From the NCBI GenBank assembly GCA_025934695.1, contig JAICWS010000002.1, positions 372,001-436,000 of the forward strand: a DNA stretch of 64,000 nucleotides, in the 5' to 3' direction. Shown one piece after another: positions 1,140 through 9,249 of the stretch. The notes beneath the pieces are model-generated. The model saw nothing but the letters and a program-made list of their open reading frames with translations. It searched no databases and had not been told where the DNA came from. This DNA comes from Alphaproteobacteria bacterium (lineage in GTDB: Bacteria; Pseudomonadota; Alphaproteobacteria; Micavibrionales; UBA2020). The stretch's first letter is position 1; each line of letters begins with the position of its first letter. A program made the translations under genes and the position numbers.

Positions 1140-2018
1140 GTGGCGGGTGCATTGAAAAAAGGCATGTTGTGCGTCGCGTTTGCGGCGGCGGTCGGCGGTC
1201 TTGCGGGCTGCGATAATAAACCGGCGCAACCCAAAGTGAACTTCGATGGGCTTCCGGTCGTTTCCCAGCATGTGAAGGCCCAGGCATCGCAGGCCGCGCT
1301 TCTCGAAATGCGCACCGAGGGCGAAGCCAAGATGCTCAAAACTCACCAGGTCACGCAAAAAGAATATGACGAAGACAAGAAGGACGGCGATTCCCGCATC
1401 GCCCTCATGCGTAGCGAATTCGTCGGCGCAGACCAGGCCGCCTTCGACGCGTACTTTCGCAGCGAACTAAAGCAGCGCGGCTTCCCCGGCCCCGGCGACA
1501 AAATGCCGGGCGAGGCGGCGGCGCCCGCGCTCAGCGCGTCAGCCCAGGCACAAGCCGGGACCATGCAGCCCGCCGTCAAGATGCTTCTCGCCAACAGCAA
1601 CCATGTCATCGGGCCCGGTGGCACCGAGAAACCGCTCGCTGGCACGACCACGCGCGAAGCGATCTTCCCCGGCGGTCCGCAGGAAAACGTCACGCGCATC
1701 GACGCGGGCGCCTTGCAGCCGGGCCAGAAATATTTCTTCGAGGGCAAGCTGTTCGTCGACGGCACCATGAAATCCGGCGTGACGCTGAACGTGGCCGGCA
1801 AAGTGGTGCTCAACGGCACCGCGCCCCAGAACACCACCATCAACGTCGTCCAGCCGACCAAGAGCGTGGGCGGCAAGGACGTGCTGCTTTACAACGATCC
1901 CGACCCCGCCATCCGCATCAATGGCGGCGTCGCCCCCAACGTGACGCTGCATACCAACGGCGGCAAGACCGTCTTTGGCACGCCGTTGCAGCCCGCGCCG
2001 AAAGCGCCGGGGCGGTAA
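1140..2018 (+). CDS. Hypothetical lipoprotein with beta-rich C-terminal part
   Basis: The 292-residue protein starts at a GTG preceded by GGCGGAGG. It opens with a lipoprotein signal ending in the lipobox LAGC (Cys at residue 24), so it should be a membrane-anchored periplasmic or outer-membrane lipoprotein. Residues about 60-130 are charged and probably helical. From about residue 190 onward the sequence alternates short hydrophobic strands with Gly/Asn turns (VDGTMKSGVTLNVAGKVVLNG), the look of a beta-solenoid or bactofilin-like segment. I do not recognise the family and assign no function. It stands alone between two repeat blocks. Confidence 0.75.
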   Translation: MAGALKKGMLCVAFAAAVGGLAGCDNKPAQPKVNFDGLPVVSQHVKAQASQAALLEMRTEGEAKMLKTHQVTQKEYDEDKKDGDSRIALMRSEFVGADQAAFDAYFRSELKQRGFPGPGDKMPGEAAAPALSASAQAQAGTMQPAVKMLLANSNHVIGPGGTEKPLAGTTTREAIFPGGPQENVTRIDAGALQPGQKYFFEGKLFVDGTMKSGVTLNVAGKVVLNGTAPQNTTINVVQPTKSVGGKDVLLYNDPDPAIRINGGVAPNVTLHTNGGKTVFGTPLQPAPKAPGR

Positions 2019-2382: not shown

Positions 2383-3696
2383 ATGGCTAAAGACGGTGTG
2401 GAGCAGGAAATTGACCATGGTCAGTACCTGAAACCTGAAGTTCAAAACGCGATCAAGCTGACGCTGGCCTTCGCGAAGGCGGTGGGCGCGCATCAGGCGG
2501 ATAAAGGCGACAACCTCGTCGTCTCGCCCTATAACGCGCAGGCATGTTTGTCGATGGTCGCCAAGGGCGCTGATTCGCTCACCCGGGATGAAATGGCGAA
2601 GACGCTGTTCGGCACCGACGGCGCGGGCCTCGATGCGGCCGTGGCCGATTACGCCAAGCTGAACGATGAAATCCTGAAAGCCAACAAGGGCCAGGTCGAA
2701 CTCACCACCGCCAACGGCATCTGGACGAACCAGAATCTCGTCACGCTGAAACAGGCTTTCGCGGACGACATGAAGAAAAACTTCGGCGCCGAAATCTCGG
2801 CTGAAGACTATGGCAACCCGGCGACACTCGACAAGATCAATGACTGGGCGGCGAAGAACACCAACAATCTGATTACCAAGGTTCTCGAAGAGCTGAACGC
2901 CGACGATGCGGCGGTGCTGGCTTCTGCGCTCTACTTCAAGGGCAAATGGACGAGCCAATTCGACGCGAAGCTGACGGAAGAGAAAACCTTCACGCTCGAG
3001 CAGGGTAAACAGGCGCTCACGCCGACGATGCACCAGGACGTCTCCGATGACGGCGTCATGCAGTATGCGAAAGGCAAGGACTATGAAGCCGTCACGCTCA
3101 CCTACGGCGAAAAGAACTGGCAGGAAAACAAATATCCCTCGATGCGCCTCGTCATGGTGCGCCCGACCGACGAAACGGTCAGCGCCCGCGACTGGCTGTC
3201 GTCGCAGGCGAACGGCAAGGTTCCGGCCTGGCTCGATCCCTACGCCTACCGCGACGCCGTCGGTTCCATCGAGCTGCCGCGCCTCGATATCAAGCAAAAG
3301 CACGACCTGATCCCGCCGATGCAGGATATGGGCGTCAAACAAGCGTTTGAAAAAGGCGCCGCCGATTTCACACGCATGATCGAAAAAGACGGCAAGCATC
3401 TTTTTGTCAGCCAGGTCTCGCATGACGTCGTGTTCAAGACCGACGAAAAAGGCTCCGAAGCCGCGGCAGTCACGACGGCTGTCATGACGCTGGAATGCTG
3501 CCATGCGCCGCCCCAGCAGGTCGACATCAAGCTCGATCGCTCGTTCGTCTTCGCGCTGCAGGATGTGCGCACCAACGCCGTCCTGTTCATCGGCGCGGTG
3601 TCGAAGCCCAACGAAGAGATGAAGCCGCTGGCGCCGCACGCGTCGAACGGCGCCCAGAAGCGCAAGCAGCACTTCGAAGGCCAACGCGGTCTCTAA
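2383..3696 (+). CDS. Serpin 1 (serine/cysteine protease inhibitor family)
   Basis: The 437-residue protein shows the serpin scaffold: NLVVSPYNAQACLSMVAKGA near the N terminus, the strand VELTTANGIWTNQN, the shutter-region segment LASALYFKGKW, LPRLDIKQKHDL, and the C-terminal barrel strands SFVFALQD and VLFIGAVSKP. The reactive-centre hinge (about residues 353-362, DEKGSEAAAVTT) has the small residues needed for loop insertion, as in inhibitory serpins. Counting from the hinge puts P1 near the LECC segment, so Glu or Leu. There is no signal peptide. The ATG at 2383 is preferred because GGAGAAA lies six bases before it; an in-frame ATG at 2368 lacks a site. It is the first gene of a three-serpin operon. 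The target protease is unknown. Confidence 0.93.
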   Translation: MAKDGVEQEIDHGQYLKPEVQNAIKLTLAFAKAVGAHQADKGDNLVVSPYNAQACLSMVAKGADSLTRDEMAKTLFGTDGAGLDAAVADYAKLNDEILKANKGQVELTTANGIWTNQNLVTLKQAFADDMKKNFGAEISAEDYGNPATLDKINDWAAKNTNNLITKVLEELNADDAAVLASALYFKGKWTSQFDAKLTEEKTFTLEQGKQALTPTMHQDVSDDGVMQYAKGKDYEAVTLTYGEKNWQENKYPSMRLVMVRPTDETVSARDWLSSQANGKVPAWLDPYAYRDAVGSIELPRLDIKQKHDLIPPMQDMGVKQAFEKGAADFTRMIEKDGKHLFVSQVSHDVVFKTDEKGSEAAAVTTAVMTLECCHAPPQQVDIKLDRSFVFALQDVRTNAVLFIGAVSKPNEEMKPLAPHASNGAQKRKQHFEGQRGL

Positions 3697-3743
3697 GAAG
3701 CGTTGATTTCAACCCATAACCTTATTCAAGGGAAGCATTACCC

Positions 3744-5069
3744 ATGTCTAACTCCCATCAACGTCCCGCGCCCGGTCTCCAAGGCGAGGAATTCCCCGCA
3801 CCCCAGCCCGGCGCGCAGTTTTCGCCGGAAGTAAAGAATGTTATCAGCCTCACGCTCGCCTTCACCAAGGCGGTCGCGGCCAACCAGGACGACAAGTCCG
3901 ACAACCTCGTCATCTCGCCTTACAATGCGCTTGCCGCCCTTTCGATGGCAAGCCAGGGCGCGGAAGGCACGACGCGCGAGGAACTCGCCAAAGCGCTTTA
4001 CGGTGCCGGCGGCAAGGGCCTCGAAACCGCGTCGCAGGCCTACGCCGACCTGAACGAGAAAGTCCTGGCCGCGAATAAAGGCCAGGTCGAACTGACCACC
4101 GCCAACGGCATCTGGACCAACCAGAACCTCGTCGAGCTGAAAGACGATTTCGCCGCGAACATGAAGAAGGTTTTCGGCGCCGAAATCTCGGGCGAAAACT
4201 TCGCGGATCCCGCGACGGTCAAGAAAATCAACGACTGGGCGGCACAGCACACCAACAACCTGATCGACAATGTGCTGGAACGCCTGGAGCCGCAGGACGC
4301 CGCCATCCTTGCCAGCGCCCTCTACTTCAAGGGCCAGTGGACCGAGAAGTTCGACAAGAAAAAGACCAAGGAAGAAAGCTTCACGCTCGACGGCGGCGAC
4401 CAGGCGACCACGCCCACGATGCACCAGAACTTCTGGGGCAGCAAAGGCGATGTCCAGTACATGAACGGCAAGGACGCCGACGCGGTCGCGCTGACCTACG
4501 GCCAGAAGGACGAAGAGGCCGGCAAGCTGCCAACCATGCGCATCATCCTCGCGCGCCCGAAAGACGGCGCAGAAACCGCCCGCGACTGGCTGTCCAAACA
4601 GGCGGGCCAGGGCGTTCCCGCCTGGCTCGATCCCGCGCAGTTCGAGGAAGCCACTGGCTCCGTCGCGCTGCCGCGCCTCGACATCAAGCAGCGCTTCGAC
4701 CTCATTCCCGCGATGAAGGACATGGGCGTCAAGCTGGCGTTCAAACACGCTACGCTCACTGAGCCCGGCGCCGATTTCAGCCGCATGGTCACTGAAGGCG
4801 GCGAAGCCCTCGCGATTTCGAAAGTACAGCACGACATCGTTTTCAAGACCGACGAAGAAGGCTCCGAAGCCGCGGCCGTGACAACCATCGGCATGAGCTT
4901 CGCGACCTCGATCGGCCCCATGAAGCCGCATATCGACCTCAAGCTCGACCGTTCGTTCGCCTTTGCTCTTCAGGATATCGAAACGGGCGCGGTGCTGTTC
5001 GTCGGCGCGGTCAACAAGCCCAACGACGAGATGAAGCCCGTGCAAAAAGCGCAAGGCCCCAAGCCGTAA
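3744..5069 (+). CDS. Serpin 2
   Basis: This 441-residue protein is a clear paralogue of the genes on either side. It has the same blocks (NLVISPYNALAALSMASQGA, LASALYFKGQW, LPRLDIKQRFDLIPAMKDMG) and an inhibitory-type hinge DEEGSEAAAVTT at about residues 370-381. The loop then reads IGMSFATSIGPMKP, so the predicted P1 is Ala or Phe, unlike its neighbours; this would favour a chymotrypsin- or elastase-like target, but that is inference from loop counting. No signal peptide or membrane anchor is visible. It starts 47 bases after serpin 1, with AAGGGA before the ATG. The N-terminal 30 residues and the short tail after the last strand lie outside the serpin fold. Confidence 0.93.
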   Translation: MSNSHQRPAPGLQGEEFPAPQPGAQFSPEVKNVISLTLAFTKAVAANQDDKSDNLVISPYNALAALSMASQGAEGTTREELAKALYGAGGKGLETASQAYADLNEKVLAANKGQVELTTANGIWTNQNLVELKDDFAANMKKVFGAEISGENFADPATVKKINDWAAQHTNNLIDNVLERLEPQDAAILASALYFKGQWTEKFDKKKTKEESFTLDGGDQATTPTMHQNFWGSKGDVQYMNGKDADAVALTYGQKDEEAGKLPTMRIILARPKDGAETARDWLSKQAGQGVPAWLDPAQFEEATGSVALPRLDIKQRFDLIPAMKDMGVKLAFKHATLTEPGADFSRMVTEGGEALAISKVQHDIVFKTDEEGSEAAAVTTIGMSFATSIGPMKPHIDLKLDRSFAFALQDIETGAVLFVGAVNKPNDEMKPVQKAQGPKP

Positions 5070-5093
5070 ATCACTTCTAGAAGGAGATAAGCA

Positions 5094-6413
5094 ATGCCCA
5101 GAAGAACTCCCCAGGTCCTGCGCGGCCAAGGCAACCCCGGTGTGGAATTCGATCCGTCGAAAGGCCACGGCCAGCACCTCGGCCCCGCGGCGCAAAATAC
5201 CATCAAGCTGACCCTCGCTTTCGCCAAGGCGGTCGCCTGCCACCAGGATGACAAGGCCGACAACCTTGTCGTTTCGCCCTATAACGCCATGGCCGCCCTG
5301 TCGATGGTGGCCAAGGGCGCCGAAGGCCGGACGCGCGATGAAATGGCGAAGACGCTGTTCGGCGTTGATGGCAAGCAACTCGATGCGTCCGTGACGGATT
5401 ACGCGGCGCTCAACGGTCGGATCCTGGCCGCTAACAACGGACAGGTCGAACTGACCACCGCCAACGGCGTCTGGACGAACAATAAGCTGGTCGAGCTGAA
5501 AGACAGCTTCGCGGAAGGGCTGCGCCAGGAATTCAGCGCCGAAATCTCGGGCGAAAATTTCTCGCCTGCGACGGTGAAGAAGATCAATGCCTGGGCGTCG
5601 AAAAACACCAAGGGCCTGATCAACGAAGTTCTCGATCAGCTCAATCCCGACGACGCAGCGGTCCTCGCGTCGGCCCTTTACTTCAAGGGTCAGTGGACGC
5701 ACAAGTTCGATAAATTGCTGACGGAAGACAAAGACTTCACGCAAGACGGCCAGACACCTGTCCATACGCCGACCATGCACCAGGACTATGGCCGCAGGGA
5801 CGATCTGACCTTCGTGCGCGGGACCGATTACGACGCGGTCGCGCTGACCTACGGCGAGAAAAACGCCGCTGCCGGAAAAAGCCCGACGATGCGCATCGTG
5901 CTGGTCCGCCCGACGGACGATGGCCAGAGCGCACGCGACTGGCTGCGCGGTCAGGGCAAGGGCATTCCGCAGTGGCTCGACCCCGCGTCCTTCGTCCAGG
6001 CGACGGGCTCGGTCGAACTGCCGCGCCTCGACATCAAGCAAAAGCATGACCTCATCCCCTCGCTCAAGGACATGGGCATCAACGCCGCTTTCACCGGCCA
6101 GGCCGATTTCGGCGGCATGGTGAAAGAGGGCGGGAAGGAACTGTCCATCAGCAAGGTCACCCACGACGTTGTGTTCAAGACGGACGAGGAAGGCTCCGAA
6201 GCCGCGGCGGTCACCTTCGTCGGCATGCGGCGGTCGATGACCGCGATGCCGCCGCCGATGCCGCATATCGACCTCAAGCTTGACCGTTCCTTCGTCTTCG
6301 CGTTGCAGGATGTGGAAACCGGCGCGGTGCTCTTCATGGGCGCCGTCAACAAGCCCAACAACGACATGAAGGCCGGCCCTGCCGCGCCGAAGGCGCCGCA
6401 ACGCGGACGCTAA
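5094..6413 (+). CDS. Serpin 3
   Basis: The 439-residue third member of the cluster has a strong ribosome site (AAGGAGAT) before its ATG and begins 24 bases after serpin 2. The scaffold blocks match the other two. The hinge DEEGSEAAAVT (about residues 364-374) is again of inhibitory type, but the loop continues FVGMRRSMTAMPPPMP. The two arginines near P1 would suit a trypsin-like or Arg-specific protease. The loop is longer on the P' side than in alpha-1-antitrypsin. No export signal is seen. A terminator follows, so this ends the operon. Confidence 0.93.
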   Translation: MPRRTPQVLRGQGNPGVEFDPSKGHGQHLGPAAQNTIKLTLAFAKAVACHQDDKADNLVVSPYNAMAALSMVAKGAEGRTRDEMAKTLFGVDGKQLDASVTDYAALNGRILAANNGQVELTTANGVWTNNKLVELKDSFAEGLRQEFSAEISGENFSPATVKKINAWASKNTKGLINEVLDQLNPDDAAVLASALYFKGQWTHKFDKLLTEDKDFTQDGQTPVHTPTMHQDYGRRDDLTFVRGTDYDAVALTYGEKNAAAGKSPTMRIVLVRPTDDGQSARDWLRGQGKGIPQWLDPASFVQATGSVELPRLDIKQKHDLIPSLKDMGINAAFTGQADFGGMVKEGGKELSISKVTHDVVFKTDEEGSEAAAVTFVGMRRSMTAMPPPMPHIDLKLDRSFVFALQDVETGAVLFMGAVNKPNNDMKAGPAAPKAPQRGR

Positions 6414-6434
6414 TATAAAGTTGTGTAAGCAAGG

Positions 6435-6474
6435 AACCCGGCATCGTTGCAAAGCGCTGCCGGGTTTCTGCTTT
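6435..6474 (+). terminator. Rho-independent terminator after the serpins
   Basis: A nine-base stem AACCCGGCA / TGCCGGGTT encloses a 14-base loop and is followed by TTCTGCTTTT. It lies 21 bases beyond the serpin 3 stop and may also serve the convergent cti gene. Confidence 0.8.
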
Positions 6475-6491
6475 TAAACCAGCCGGAACCG

Positions 6492-8864
6492 TCAGTGCCA
6501 GTCGCCGTCTTCGGTCCAGATGCCGTAGCGCGTGTAATCCAGGATGCCGAAAGCGACGGGATCCTGCCGGCGCAGCCAGGCATGCAACCGGTCCGAAACC
6601 GCCCAGAACTGCGGACTGGTTTTCAGCACCGCCCAGTTGTTTATAAAGGCGCGGGCGGAGGCGGGGTCATGGACCGCCTCCAGCTGGCGCCGGAAGTCCG
6701 GCAGCTTATTCTCCGGAACCTCGAAGAAAAGATTGGGGTAGCTCGTGGCCAGGCCGGTCACGACGGCGAGGCGGTCCTGTGCCGGGCGCATCGCCGTGGA
6801 TTCCATGAGGAACCGGCCCAGCGCGGTATGCATCCGGTCCCGCACGACCGTCACGACGTCCTTGATCCTGCCGTTCGCTTCCACGAGCAGCAGCGACGAA
6901 TCCGGGAATAAATTCACGAAAGGCGCCGTTTTCGCCGCGCGCCCGGCGATGGATTCCAGCGGCGCGTATTCGGATGCTAAAGTGCCGTCATGCGGCCCGC
7001 GGATGGGCGAGCTCATGTGGTCCCAGATCTGACCGACCAGTTCCCTGTCGGTGTGCGTGGGATCGCGGTAAGCGATCTGCGTGGGGAACCGGCTATCGTC
7101 CGGATTGATGAAAATCTTTTCGCCCAGTTTCGCGACCGCGCCCTGATACCATTGCGCCCGCAGGCGCTGGCGTTCGGTCGGCGGCAGGAAGATCAGGAAA
7201 TTATTCTCGGCCTCGCGCCGGATCATGCCCATATAGACCCGCGTGTGGATTTGATGATCGAGGTTGCCGAAAACGTCGTATCCCACGACCAGGTTGTACA
7301 CAAGGCGTTCGAATAGCCCGTAATCCAGCACGAAATAGCTGGTGGCCGGCCCGCCGCGCAGTCCCTGCAGCACATAGGAATGATCGTCATGGCGGAACAC
7401 CGTGAGAATGGCGTTGGGGTTGGTTCCGTCGCCATTCCAAAGGTCGGAGAGCTGGTATCCTTTGGCAAAATCGGTCTTGCGATGCGCATCTTTCATCCGC
7501 ACATATTGATTGCGGGCGCTGATATACATGTCGCCCAGAATATGCCCGTCGGTGAAGGCGGTCCGCTCCACGATCGATTCCCGCAGTTGCTTGAGCGAAA
7601 GCTTGCCGATGAGCGAGCTGTCGTTCTCGTTCAGGTAGGGGAGCACCAGCAAGTTCTCGCTCTCCTTTGCGAAACCGGGGTCGACGACCATCAGCTCGGA
7701 CTTCGGGTCCATGAAAAAGACGAAGAAATGCTCGTCGATCGAATTGACCGCGCCCCTGCCATAGCAAACCGGCCCCTTGATGAAGGTCGCGACATGATAC
7801 TGCGCGTCCTCGAGCAGGAAACGGTAGCGCGCCTCCACCGGCACATCCTGGTAGACGACGAAGGGATTGGTCTTATCGGGCGTCGTGTACGCAGGCGGGT
7901 GCGAGACTTTCCATGGATGCTGCGGGTCGAAGAACAGGCCGGCGATGCGCTTCAGCCGCGCCCGGTCCATGAGGTAGGGAAGATGCGTCTTCTCGACCAC
8001 CGTTTCCTGTTGCGGCTGGAAACAGTAATGGAACGGGCCGCCGGGATCATCCGACGGACGGCGCGTCGCAATTTCATCCAGCGGACGCTCGCAGCTGGTG
8101 CGGCTGCGCAACAGCCGGTAGAACTTCAGCGAATCCTTGTCGAAATGCAGGCTCGCCAGGAACAGGTGTTCGTACAGGTAACGCGCCACCAGCCGATGTT
8201 CGGGGTCATCCTTATTTAGGAAGTCCTGCCAGGAATTTTTCGCTTCGGCTTGCGCAGGGGGAAGATCGTCAACGATTGGCGGCGGCGGCTTTTGGCCGTT
8301 GGCGAACCAGCCCGCCAGCACTCCCTGCTCGGCCTTGGTCAGGGGCGGGAGGCCATAAGGCATCAGTTTGTCCGGATTGCTTGCCGCGAACGACTTGAAT
8401 TCCTTGTCATTGGCGGGGCAGGTATGCGAATCCTCGACGATATCCTTGGGCGAATGCTGTTTCCCGCGGTTCAGCATCTGGAGCAGCAGGTTGGTCTGCC
8501 CGTCGGCCACGGGGAAGAAGCCCTTGTCCTTGTGCCATTCCGCGGACGTCCGCGCGTCGATGCCAAGCCGCGTGGGTGCGATGCTTTCGAGGCGCGTCGG
8601 GTGAATGAGTTCGATCTTGCTGGCTCCGCGTTCGAGGCCTTCGTATGAGGTCAGCTTGAGCTGGCAGGGCGCGTTGTTGCAGCTGTGGCAGGTCACGCAG
8701 CGGTTATCGAAGATGCGTTGCGCCGCCGCGTAAGGAACTTCTTCCCCGGCCGCCACCGGAACGGGTGCGGCTTTCGGCGCGGCGGATTTTCCATGAATCG
8801 CGGCAACGGCGCTGCCGCCGAGCAGCAGCAGGAGGGTGAGAAACAGAAAGGGGCGATGTGTCAA
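6492..8864 (-). CDS. cti: Fatty acid cis/trans isomerase (periplasmic haem protein)
   Basis: Cti converts cis-unsaturated acyl chains of membrane lipids to trans forms, which stiffens the membrane during solvent or heat stress. The protein (about 790 residues) has an N-terminal Sec signal (FLFLTLLLLLGG), then the c-type haem motif CVTCH at residues 56-60 and the diagnostic CNNAPCQLKLTSYEGLERG, followed by the long CTI domain. I prefer the TTG at 8864 because AGGG lies six bases before it and it gives a clean signal peptide. An in-frame ATG at 8909 overlaps the upstream lipoprotein gene. The stop codon of that lipoprotein gene ends one base before this TTG, so the two are probably translationally coupled. 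Confidence 0.9.
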   Translation of the reverse strand: MTHRPFLFLTLLLLLGGSAVAAIHGKSAAPKAAPVPVAAGEEVPYAAAQRIFDNRCVTCHSCNNAPCQLKLTSYEGLERGASKIELIHPTRLESIAPTRLGIDARTSAEWHKDKGFFPVADGQTNLLLQMLNRGKQHSPKDIVEDSHTCPANDKEFKSFAASNPDKLMPYGLPPLTKAEQGVLAGWFANGQKPPPPIVDDLPPAQAEAKNSWQDFLNKDDPEHRLVARYLYEHLFLASLHFDKDSLKFYRLLRSRTSCERPLDEIATRRPSDDPGGPFHYCFQPQQETVVEKTHLPYLMDRARLKRIAGLFFDPQHPWKVSHPPAYTTPDKTNPFVVYQDVPVEARYRFLLEDAQYHVATFIKGPVCYGRGAVNSIDEHFFVFFMDPKSELMVVDPGFAKESENLLVLPYLNENDSSLIGKLSLKQLRESIVERTAFTDGHILGDMYISARNQYVRMKDAHRKTDFAKGYQLSDLWNGDGTNPNAILTVFRHDDHSYVLQGLRGGPATSYFVLDYGLFERLVYNLVVGYDVFGNLDHQIHTRVYMGMIRREAENNFLIFLPPTERQRLRAQWYQGAVAKLGEKIFINPDDSRFPTQIAYRDPTHTDRELVGQIWDHMSSPIRGPHDGTLASEYAPLESIAGRAAKTAPFVNLFPDSSLLLVEANGRIKDVVTVVRDRMHTALGRFLMESTAMRPAQDRLAVVTGLATSYPNLFFEVPENKLPDFRRQLEAVHDPASARAFINNWAVLKTSPQFWAVSDRLHAWLRRQDPVAFGILDYTRYGIWTEDGDWH

Positions 8865-8865
8865 A

Positions 8866-9249
8866 TTAAGCCCTGCAATTATTTCCCTTATGACCCCAGC
8901 GAACGACATGCCCGTTCTGGATCGTGAAGATCGTCTCGCAGTGATAGGTCTCCGCGCTCGGCGGAATCTGCGGCGGGCAGCTCGTCAGCACGCCGCGGCG
9001 GTCGACGGCCGCGGCGCAGGGCTCGAAACTGCCGGGATAGACGACGGTCTGGTGCGAGACGTAGGAGATCATCTTGGTATTCGCATCCAGCTGGTATTGC
9101 TTGTCGGGAATGCCCCAGCTCGTCACCAGCTCTTTCTCGCTCTTGCCGATCCAGGTGTTCAACTTGGCATCATAGGCTTCCGTGGTCGTGCAGGCCGACA
9201 GGAAGCCCAGCGACAGGACGACAAACAGGGACAGGGCGATGCGCAGCAT
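8866..9249 (-). CDS. Small lipoprotein of unknown function
   Basis: The 127-residue protein has a lipoprotein signal with LSAC, lipidated Cys at residue 20. The mature part contains WIGKSEKELVTSWGIPDKQY, which recalls the short helical repeat of SmpA/OmlA-type outer-membrane lipoproteins. It also has four further cysteines (two in the middle, two near the C terminus) that could form disulfides in the periplasm. It precedes cti on the same strand with almost no gap, so it may work with that periplasmic enzyme; this is context only. Confidence 0.75.
   Translation of the reverse strand: MLRIALSLFVVLSLGFLSACTTTEAYDAKLNTWIGKSEKELVTSWGIPDKQYQLDANTKMISYVSHQTVVYPGSFEPCAAAVDRRGVLTSCPPQIPPSAETYHCETIFTIQNGHVVRWGHKGNNCRA

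Follow-up and report, generated by a model that had tools for sequence, protein, structure and literature searches.

A genus-level array of three serpin genes with three types of bait loop in an alphaproteobacterium

The window analysed here is a stretch of 64,000 nucleotides from an alphaproteobacterium of the order Micavibrionales (assembly GCA_025934695.1, contig JAICWS010000002.1, positions 372,001 to 436,000), which carries three consecutive serpin genes at 2383-6413. These genes form a real and inherited array, characteristic of one genus, in a class where serpins are rare. The proteins belong to a known kind, the serpins, and the variant found here is the genus-level array with three loop types. 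We consider it moderately probable that they act as three cytosolic suicide inhibitors of the serpin type, in which one scaffold presents three bait loops and the targets are stable and partly the cell's own. The features of the array are given below (positions are those of the window; a slash marks the P1-P1' bond). P1 was placed 17 residues on from the hinge Glu at P17, which is the usual convention for this spacing.

2383-3696, plus strand: serpin 1, 437 amino acids from the ATG at 2383 (with a further in-frame start codon at 2368), type 1 loop with P1 Glu, probably cytosolic
3451-3510, plus strand: hinge and loop of serpin 1, GSEAAAVT-TAVMTLE/CCHAP, P1 Glu codon 3493-3495, vicinal Cys codons 3496-3501
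3744-5069, plus strand: serpin 2, 441 amino acids, type 2 loop with P1 Ala, probably cytosolic
4860-4919, plus strand: hinge and loop of serpin 2, GSEAAAVT-TIGMSFA/TSIGP, P1 Ala codon 4902-4904
5094-6413, plus strand: serpin 3, 439 amino acids, type 3 loop with P1 Ser, probably cytosolic
6192-6251, plus strand: hinge and loop of serpin 3, GSEAAAVT-FVGMRRS/MTAMP, P1 Ser codon 6234-6236
about 6427-6473, plus strand: terminator-like hairpin behind the array, from the RNA fold of 6414-6482

The array and its membership in the serpin family

A sequence-only reading of the window had proposed three serpin genes of about 440 residues each, forming one operon with a terminator. All three open reading frames align with PF00079 over profile positions 7-370 of 370, that is, at full length, scoring 264.6 bits for serpin 1 (frame from 2368), 266.5 for serpin 2 and 257.9 for serpin 3 (cut-off 27), so that a failure to match the profile, named in that reading as grounds for refutation, did not occur (258-267 bits). 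In a profile search of the whole genome of this window (4.13 Mb, hereafter G000) these three were the only serpins found. The serpin fold was also recovered, for gene 1 only, in an AlphaFold model (pLDDT 76.6, 13 sequences deep) whose 50 listed PDB matches are all serpins (best E 9e-32); its loop is apparently drawn inserted, and the model is thus not of the native state. Since profile and fold are both found, membership in the PF00079/MEROPS I4 serpin superfamily stands despite the altered shutter described below.

The genes are separated by 47 bp (serpins 1 and 2) and 24 bp (serpins 2 and 3), and purine-rich stretches resembling ribosome sites lie 5' of the ATGs at 2383, 3744 and 5094 (GGAG before 2383), for which reason 2383 is a better start of gene 1 than 2368. 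The hairpin behind the array is T-rich on its 3' side and has a folding energy of -32.3 kcal/mol, against -15.4 for shuffled sequences (standard deviation 2.6, z -6.6, 0/200 shuffles as good). A pattern scan for terminators (longest loop allowed 8) did not list it, and no convincing sigma-70 promoter appeared in a pattern scan. Short spacers and a terminator-like hairpin suggest a single transcript for the three genes, and the proposed operon-like layout is thereby upheld. None of the array copies has an N-terminal hydrophobic stretch or a signal-peptide-like start, as judged by eye and by hydropathy.

Open frames antisense to the serpin genes were also seen, one of 904 codons opposite serpins 2 and 3 (3738-6452, minus strand) and others in the genomes G001, G003, G004, G005 and G011; they probably arise from codon use with a high GC3 (GC3, the GC content at third codon positions, is 0.78-0.82 in the serpin genes, which is unremarkable beside the 0.78 and 0.81 of two neighbour genes).

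Bait loops, shutter and a possible redox switch

From P17 to P8 the hinge reads E[KE]GSEAAAVT in the three array serpins, with the inhibitory-type GSEAAAVT identical in all of them, as the sequence-only reading had stated. This fits the inhibitory consensus except for Val at P9, which the Drosophilid consensus allows (PMC2770083). The same hinge, as GSEAAA[VI]T, and the Glu at P17 are found in 29/29 rows of the order clade, a set that comprises 29 of the 32 serpin places in the order (without G472 and the fragments of G027 and G009).

The loop types follow gene position across the genus. Classed by position, and so in a non-circular manner, first genes end in MTLE/[CS] in 5/5, second genes in FA/TS in 5/5 and third genes in R[SA] in 4/4. 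The type 1 loop is TAVMTLE/CC in G000 and TAVMTLE, VAKMTLE or YARMSLE followed by C or S in eight other rows, the nine rows coming from four genera (g1, g3, g14 and g19). Gene 2 has TIGMSFA/TS or TVGMVFA/TS (5/5), and gene 3 has FVGMRRS/MT in G000, VVGMTRS/AS in G001 and VVGMVRA/TS in G003 and G004, with loops resembling RATS also present in G006, G011, G033, G036_a and G042_b. Among the paralogues of one genome the P7-P1 identity is low, at 0.24 in G000 (scaffold 0.62), 0.29 in G001 (0.67), 0.38 in G003 (0.66) and 0.38 in G004 (0.67), the value for G000 lying at the 3rd percentile of windows of seven columns. Among the three orthologue pairs of G000 and G001 it is 0.81, with 0.74 for the scaffold, and the gene 1 and gene 2 loops stand at the 89th and 78th percentiles of windows for conservation. 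Loops of inhibitory serpins that are more conserved than the cores among orthologues are likewise described in Drosophilids (PMC2770083). The loops thus suggest distinct and stable targets for the three proteins.

The most unexpected point of the finding lies in the shutter. Shutter residues are widely conserved in serpins without being strictly defining, and position 369 is Pro in most of them. Of the usual Ser56/Asn186/His334 set (alpha-1-antitrypsin numbering), positions 56 and 186 are replaced in the array serpins, and the order clade as a whole has Asn56 in 28/29, Ser186 in 28/29, His334 in 28/29 and Ser369 in 29/29 rows. Twelve other serpins (G472 and those of the class and phylum samples, with G555 left out) include none with Asn56 or Ser369, five with Ser56 and Asn186, and one with Ser186 next to Gly56. 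Read from the aligned sequences, two residues of the latch have therefore been swapped reciprocally in this clade (S56N/N186S), and Pro369 has been lost. In alpha-1-antitrypsin Asn186 bonds with His334 and Ser56, the three positions are called highly conserved, 56 and 186 are described as important for serpin stability, and N186Y in the human protein causes deficiency (PMC8198886).

A second peculiarity concerns serpin 1, in which a Cys pair follows P1 (MTLE/CC). Among the nine type 1 rows this pair is found in gene 1 of G000 only; the other eight have Cys (five) or Ser (three) at P1' and none has Cys at P2', and since the pair is confined to one species, it may be due to chance. In human SERPINB9 a Cys pair directly follows P1. 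That inhibitor (PI-9) has Glu at P1, and its loop Cys pair can oxidise to an inactivating vicinal disulfide (PMC11222584), so that gene 1, with its Glu-Cys-Cys, resembles it in P1 residue and Cys pair; unlike the setting of SERPINB9, no caspase was found in the serpin-bearing genomes of the order. We treat the likeness as convergence (the tree below covers serpins of the order and of the class and phylum samples). The combined proposal of a rewired shutter (Asn56, Ser186 and Ser369, with the latch partners of His334 exchanged), a cytosolic division of labour by loop, and a gene 1 product that would be a redox-switched, acid-specific inhibitor convergent with SERPINB9 is, taken as a whole, unlikely.

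Distribution and history of the copies

Serpins of any kind occur in 17 of the 142 genomes of the order and in 9 of 385 genomes sampled evenly from the class (G000 included in both counts), as well as in 7/398 of a phylum sample, which bears out the rarity in the class that had been claimed. The complete triplet is present in four of the six genomes of the genus (G000, G001, G003 and G004), and in G005 genes 1 and 2 run up to a contig end that cuts it. All six bear serpins, of which G002 (96% complete, no array match) has only a separate copy. The triplet is absent from the remaining 136 genomes of the order, and its occurrence in many ordinary relatives, which had been named as a second ground for refutation, was accordingly not encountered: it is confined to one genus among 142 order genomes. 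By listed coordinates, no further genome of the order or of the class and phylum samples has adjacent serpin genes (in G642 a single profile is matched in two parts, by frames of equal length, and the pair of matches in G302 is spread over different contigs). Around the array the genus has AMP-ligase genes on one side and small lipoprotein and PheT genes on the other, where the contig reaches, and these recurring flanks indicate that the array is inherited. Recent acquisition was considered and rejected, since the GC content of the genes (0.589, 0.618 and 0.624) is unremarkable against the window (0.600) and the order-level serpins form a single clade. A phage origin was likewise discarded, with 0/83 pattern matches in viral contigs proving to be relatives of these serpins and no PHROG match for gene 2, the sole serpin scanned.

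Outside the array, G002-G005 have an extra serpin elsewhere (the x copy) with a signal-peptide-like N terminus, and the copies G033, G036_a and G042_b of family f5 have such an N terminus if an upstream ATG is used. Ankyrin-repeat-like genes were seen by eye near the serpin genes of G033, G036 and G016 (loci L063, L064 and L061).

The sequence-only reading had called for a tree of the copies, to separate local duplication from repeated acquisition. Our tree comprises 38 serpins and excludes G302_a, G302_b, G074 (divergent) and G555 (read in a wrong frame); also outside it are the G009 fragment, part of which is N, the fragment of G027, and G550 and G642 as partial matches. All 29 rows from the order fall into a single clade, set apart from the remaining serpins of the class and phylum (99/99, with long outgroup branches), which makes repeated acquisition from outside unlikely; G472, of the same order, falls with the outgroup serpins. 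Within the clade there is one group of genes 2 and 3 from G000 and G001 (93/84), and another that unites their counterparts in G003-G005 with G006 and G011 (99/98). Approximately unbiased (AU) tests on the scaffold, with the loop removed, reject type 1 as one clade (p 0.0008; p 0.0004 without G028) and type 3 as one clade (p 7e-5), and do not reject type 2 as one clade (p 0.10) or a clade of all six copies of G000 and G001 (p 0.16). When the scaffold was divided into thirds, the trees showed no clear breakpoint, and only in the C-terminal third did type 2 form one group.

Of the local amplification followed by divergence that had been proposed, the kinship of the copies stands, and three points have to be amended. 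The triplet is a genus trait and hence not a recent amplification in this strain, and, because scaffold trees and loop types disagree, its history is not one of plain duplication and then divergence. The type 1 loop is also present in three other genera, at unlinked sites, and is thus older than the array. These patterns point to gene conversion, loop transfer or convergence as additional processes that the array history would need, and local duplication may still account for some of the copies.

In G000 and G001 a lipoprotein-like open reading frame lies directly upstream of the array (window 1140-2018, which is L047 11140-12018; L048 7918-9068 in the other record), seemingly split in G001. 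In G000 it is 292 amino acids long, has no match in Pfam, NCBIfam or PHROG, and is accompanied by an AMP-binding enzyme, also upstream of the array. Intergenic CCCTCTCCC...GGGAGAGGG stretches flank it (780-960 and 2080-2210) and by eye resemble small dispersed repeats. Downstream, a fatty acid cis/trans isomerase gene (CTI, PF06934, 656 bits; 6492-8909, minus strand) adjoins the array, with no homologue in the fetched neighbourhoods of relatives.

Proposed function, candidate targets and significance

In the proposed mechanism, a protease would cut the loop at P1-P1', stay bound as an acyl-enzyme and be distorted while the loop enters sheet A, and the three inhibitors, with Glu, Ala and Ser at P1, would together cover three cleavage preferences inside the cell. 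The targets would be, at least in part, the cell's own proteases made in, leaking into or misfiring in it, with exported subtilases and Deg-type enzymes as possible examples, although any naming of the targeted proteases is a guess. Stable and in some measure endogenous targets are probable because the loop types are largely kept in relatives while the paralogues of one cell differ.

Trypsin-family proteins are present in 41/41 genomes examined, mostly Deg-like by length. G000 has three, with the lengths of Deg proteases, of which the one that was read ends in PDZ-like repeats (by eye). The idea that the P1 Glu loop targets a caspase of the cell itself found no support, C14 (PF00656) matching 0/17 serpin-bearing and 2/24 serpin-less genomes. 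Subtilases (PF00082) are commoner with serpins, in 13/17 serpin-bearing against 52/125 serpin-less genomes of the order (p 0.009), and more strongly so in a hand-picked set of 41 genomes (13/17 against 6/24). The 22 subtilases read, by eye and motif, are of mixed kinds: an RTX type in G000, G001, G003, G028 and G472, a signal-peptide type in G000, G015, G016, G027, G033, G036 and G042, and another kind in G006, the seven from serpin-less genomes being of RTX type (five) or of the G006 kind (two); those of G004 and G016 are cut by contig or fetched ends. G000 itself has two (L117 and L118), one of RTX type without a signal-peptide-like start, the second with such a start and a C-terminal part of 440 amino acids. 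A profile of this shared C-terminal part of the signal-peptide type (A2), built from serpin-bearing genomes only, matches 10/142 genomes, 7/17 with serpins and 3/125 without (G477, G496 and G020; p 1e-5), and the type is found in 2/2 genomes with a serpin against 0/6 within genus g3, and in 4/4 against 0/3 within family f5. The p values for subtilases ignore relatedness, and the A2 test was chosen after the mixed kinds had been seen. By eye the C-terminal part has the look of a barrel, but three A2-type proteins gave no match to Pfam Autotransporter. An exported subtilase could be met by the serpins that f5 exports. We take the subtilase association as a lead only.

Several observations weigh against stable and partly endogenous targets. 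The within-group loop identity of type 1 (0.81, with 0.62 for the scaffold; seven rows, near-copies excluded) is partly circular, type 1 being defined by its loop outside the genus. The gene 3 loop is unstable (RS in G000 and G001, RA in G003 and G004), the R-type copies have a loop identity of 0.45, below the 0.64 of their scaffold, and genes 2 and 3 of G003, like those of G004, share 0.71 of the loop. The conserved neighbours of the array are housekeeping genes (AMP ligase, small lipoprotein and PheT) with no protease seen among them, and no evident Glu-specific enzyme is found among the three trypsin-family matches of G000 (one read). The A2 construction just mentioned counts here as well, as do the few independent cases on which the subtilase associations rest: 10/17 serpin-bearing genomes, including five of the six in the genus (all except G000), are without the A2 type, and G002, G005, G009 and G011 have no subtilase match at all. 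In addition, an exported subtilase would meet the cytosolic array serpins only before export.

Some of these points fit a shield of broad spectrum against proteases of foreign origin, whether of prey, hosts, competitors or phages, that get into the cytosol or appear at lysis, a reading that we regard as rather unlikely. Three P1 classes are what such a shield would need, neither an evident endogenous Glu-specific protease nor a C14 caspase was found (the latter in 17 serpin-bearing genomes), the gene 3 and R-type loops vary, and the signal-peptide-like N termini of the x copies and of three f5 copies imply that some members of the clade work outside the cytosol. Loops of inhibitors directed at foreign proteases are, however, expected to change fast, and those of genes 1 and 2 are among the better conserved parts of the proteins; the array copies, moreover, have no export signals, and the viral contigs yielded no relatives. 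That the array reflects dosage or drift only, with redundant paralogues whose loop differences mean little, is improbable: the mixed histories of scaffold and loop and the missing array in the nearly complete G002 would suit it, but throughout the genus the loop types keep to their gene positions, type 1 is found again in three other genera, and between paralogues the loop ranks with the least similar windows. A serpin fold retained for a chaperone or binding role is very improbable, since, despite the loss of the usual Ser56, Asn186 and Pro369, the inhibitory hinge and P17 Glu are invariant in the clade, His334 is nearly so (28/29), and the loop is conserved around P1.

Inhibition of proteases, with a division of labour among the three loops and endogenous targets, thus appears to be the reading most consistent with the array, and precedents exist for parts of it. 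The nearest is Clostridium thermocellum, which likewise has several serpins per genome: three are known, of which one inhibits subtilisin, with an own subtilase suggested as target (Kang et al. 2006, via PMC6718151). Two of those are given as predicted cellulosomal proteins and one as a membrane protein (PMC6718151), whereas the three described here all look cytosolic, are operon-like and have three loop types. The Drosophila clusters also combine clustered genes with loops kept among orthologues, but they are eukaryotic and include non-inhibitory copies (PMC2770083), of which the array has none by hinge. Among the best solved-structure relatives by sequence are miropin (PDB 5ncs, E 4e-34 for gene 1) and conserpin-AATRCL (5cdx, E 4e-37 for gene 2), conserpin being a designed consensus serpin. 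Both share the inhibitory hinge with the array serpins, and both keep Ser56, Asn186 and Pro369 in the aligned stretches, all three of which the array serpins replace. Chloropin is another bacterial serpin that has been studied (PMC10090351). We found no literature on serpin arrays in alphaproteobacteria, or on serpins and Micavibrio, a negative that partial coverage makes weak, and the terms tandem, duplication, paralog and alphaproteobacteria do not occur in the main text of PMC8233489.

In that article, Spence et al. (2021) report transport peptides in most prokaryotic serpins, propose that hub-like ones do housekeeping inside the cell, and describe the roles of bacterial serpins as enigmatic (PMC8233489). 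The array suggests a small and stable panel of suicide inhibitors in this genus. Since two positions critical in human antitrypsin are here changed together in nature, the shutter exchange offers a test of the serpin latch. The role of bacterial serpins becomes testable in a genus that has retained three serpins, apparently cytosolic, whose loops are separate and mostly conserved, each loop pointing to a target.

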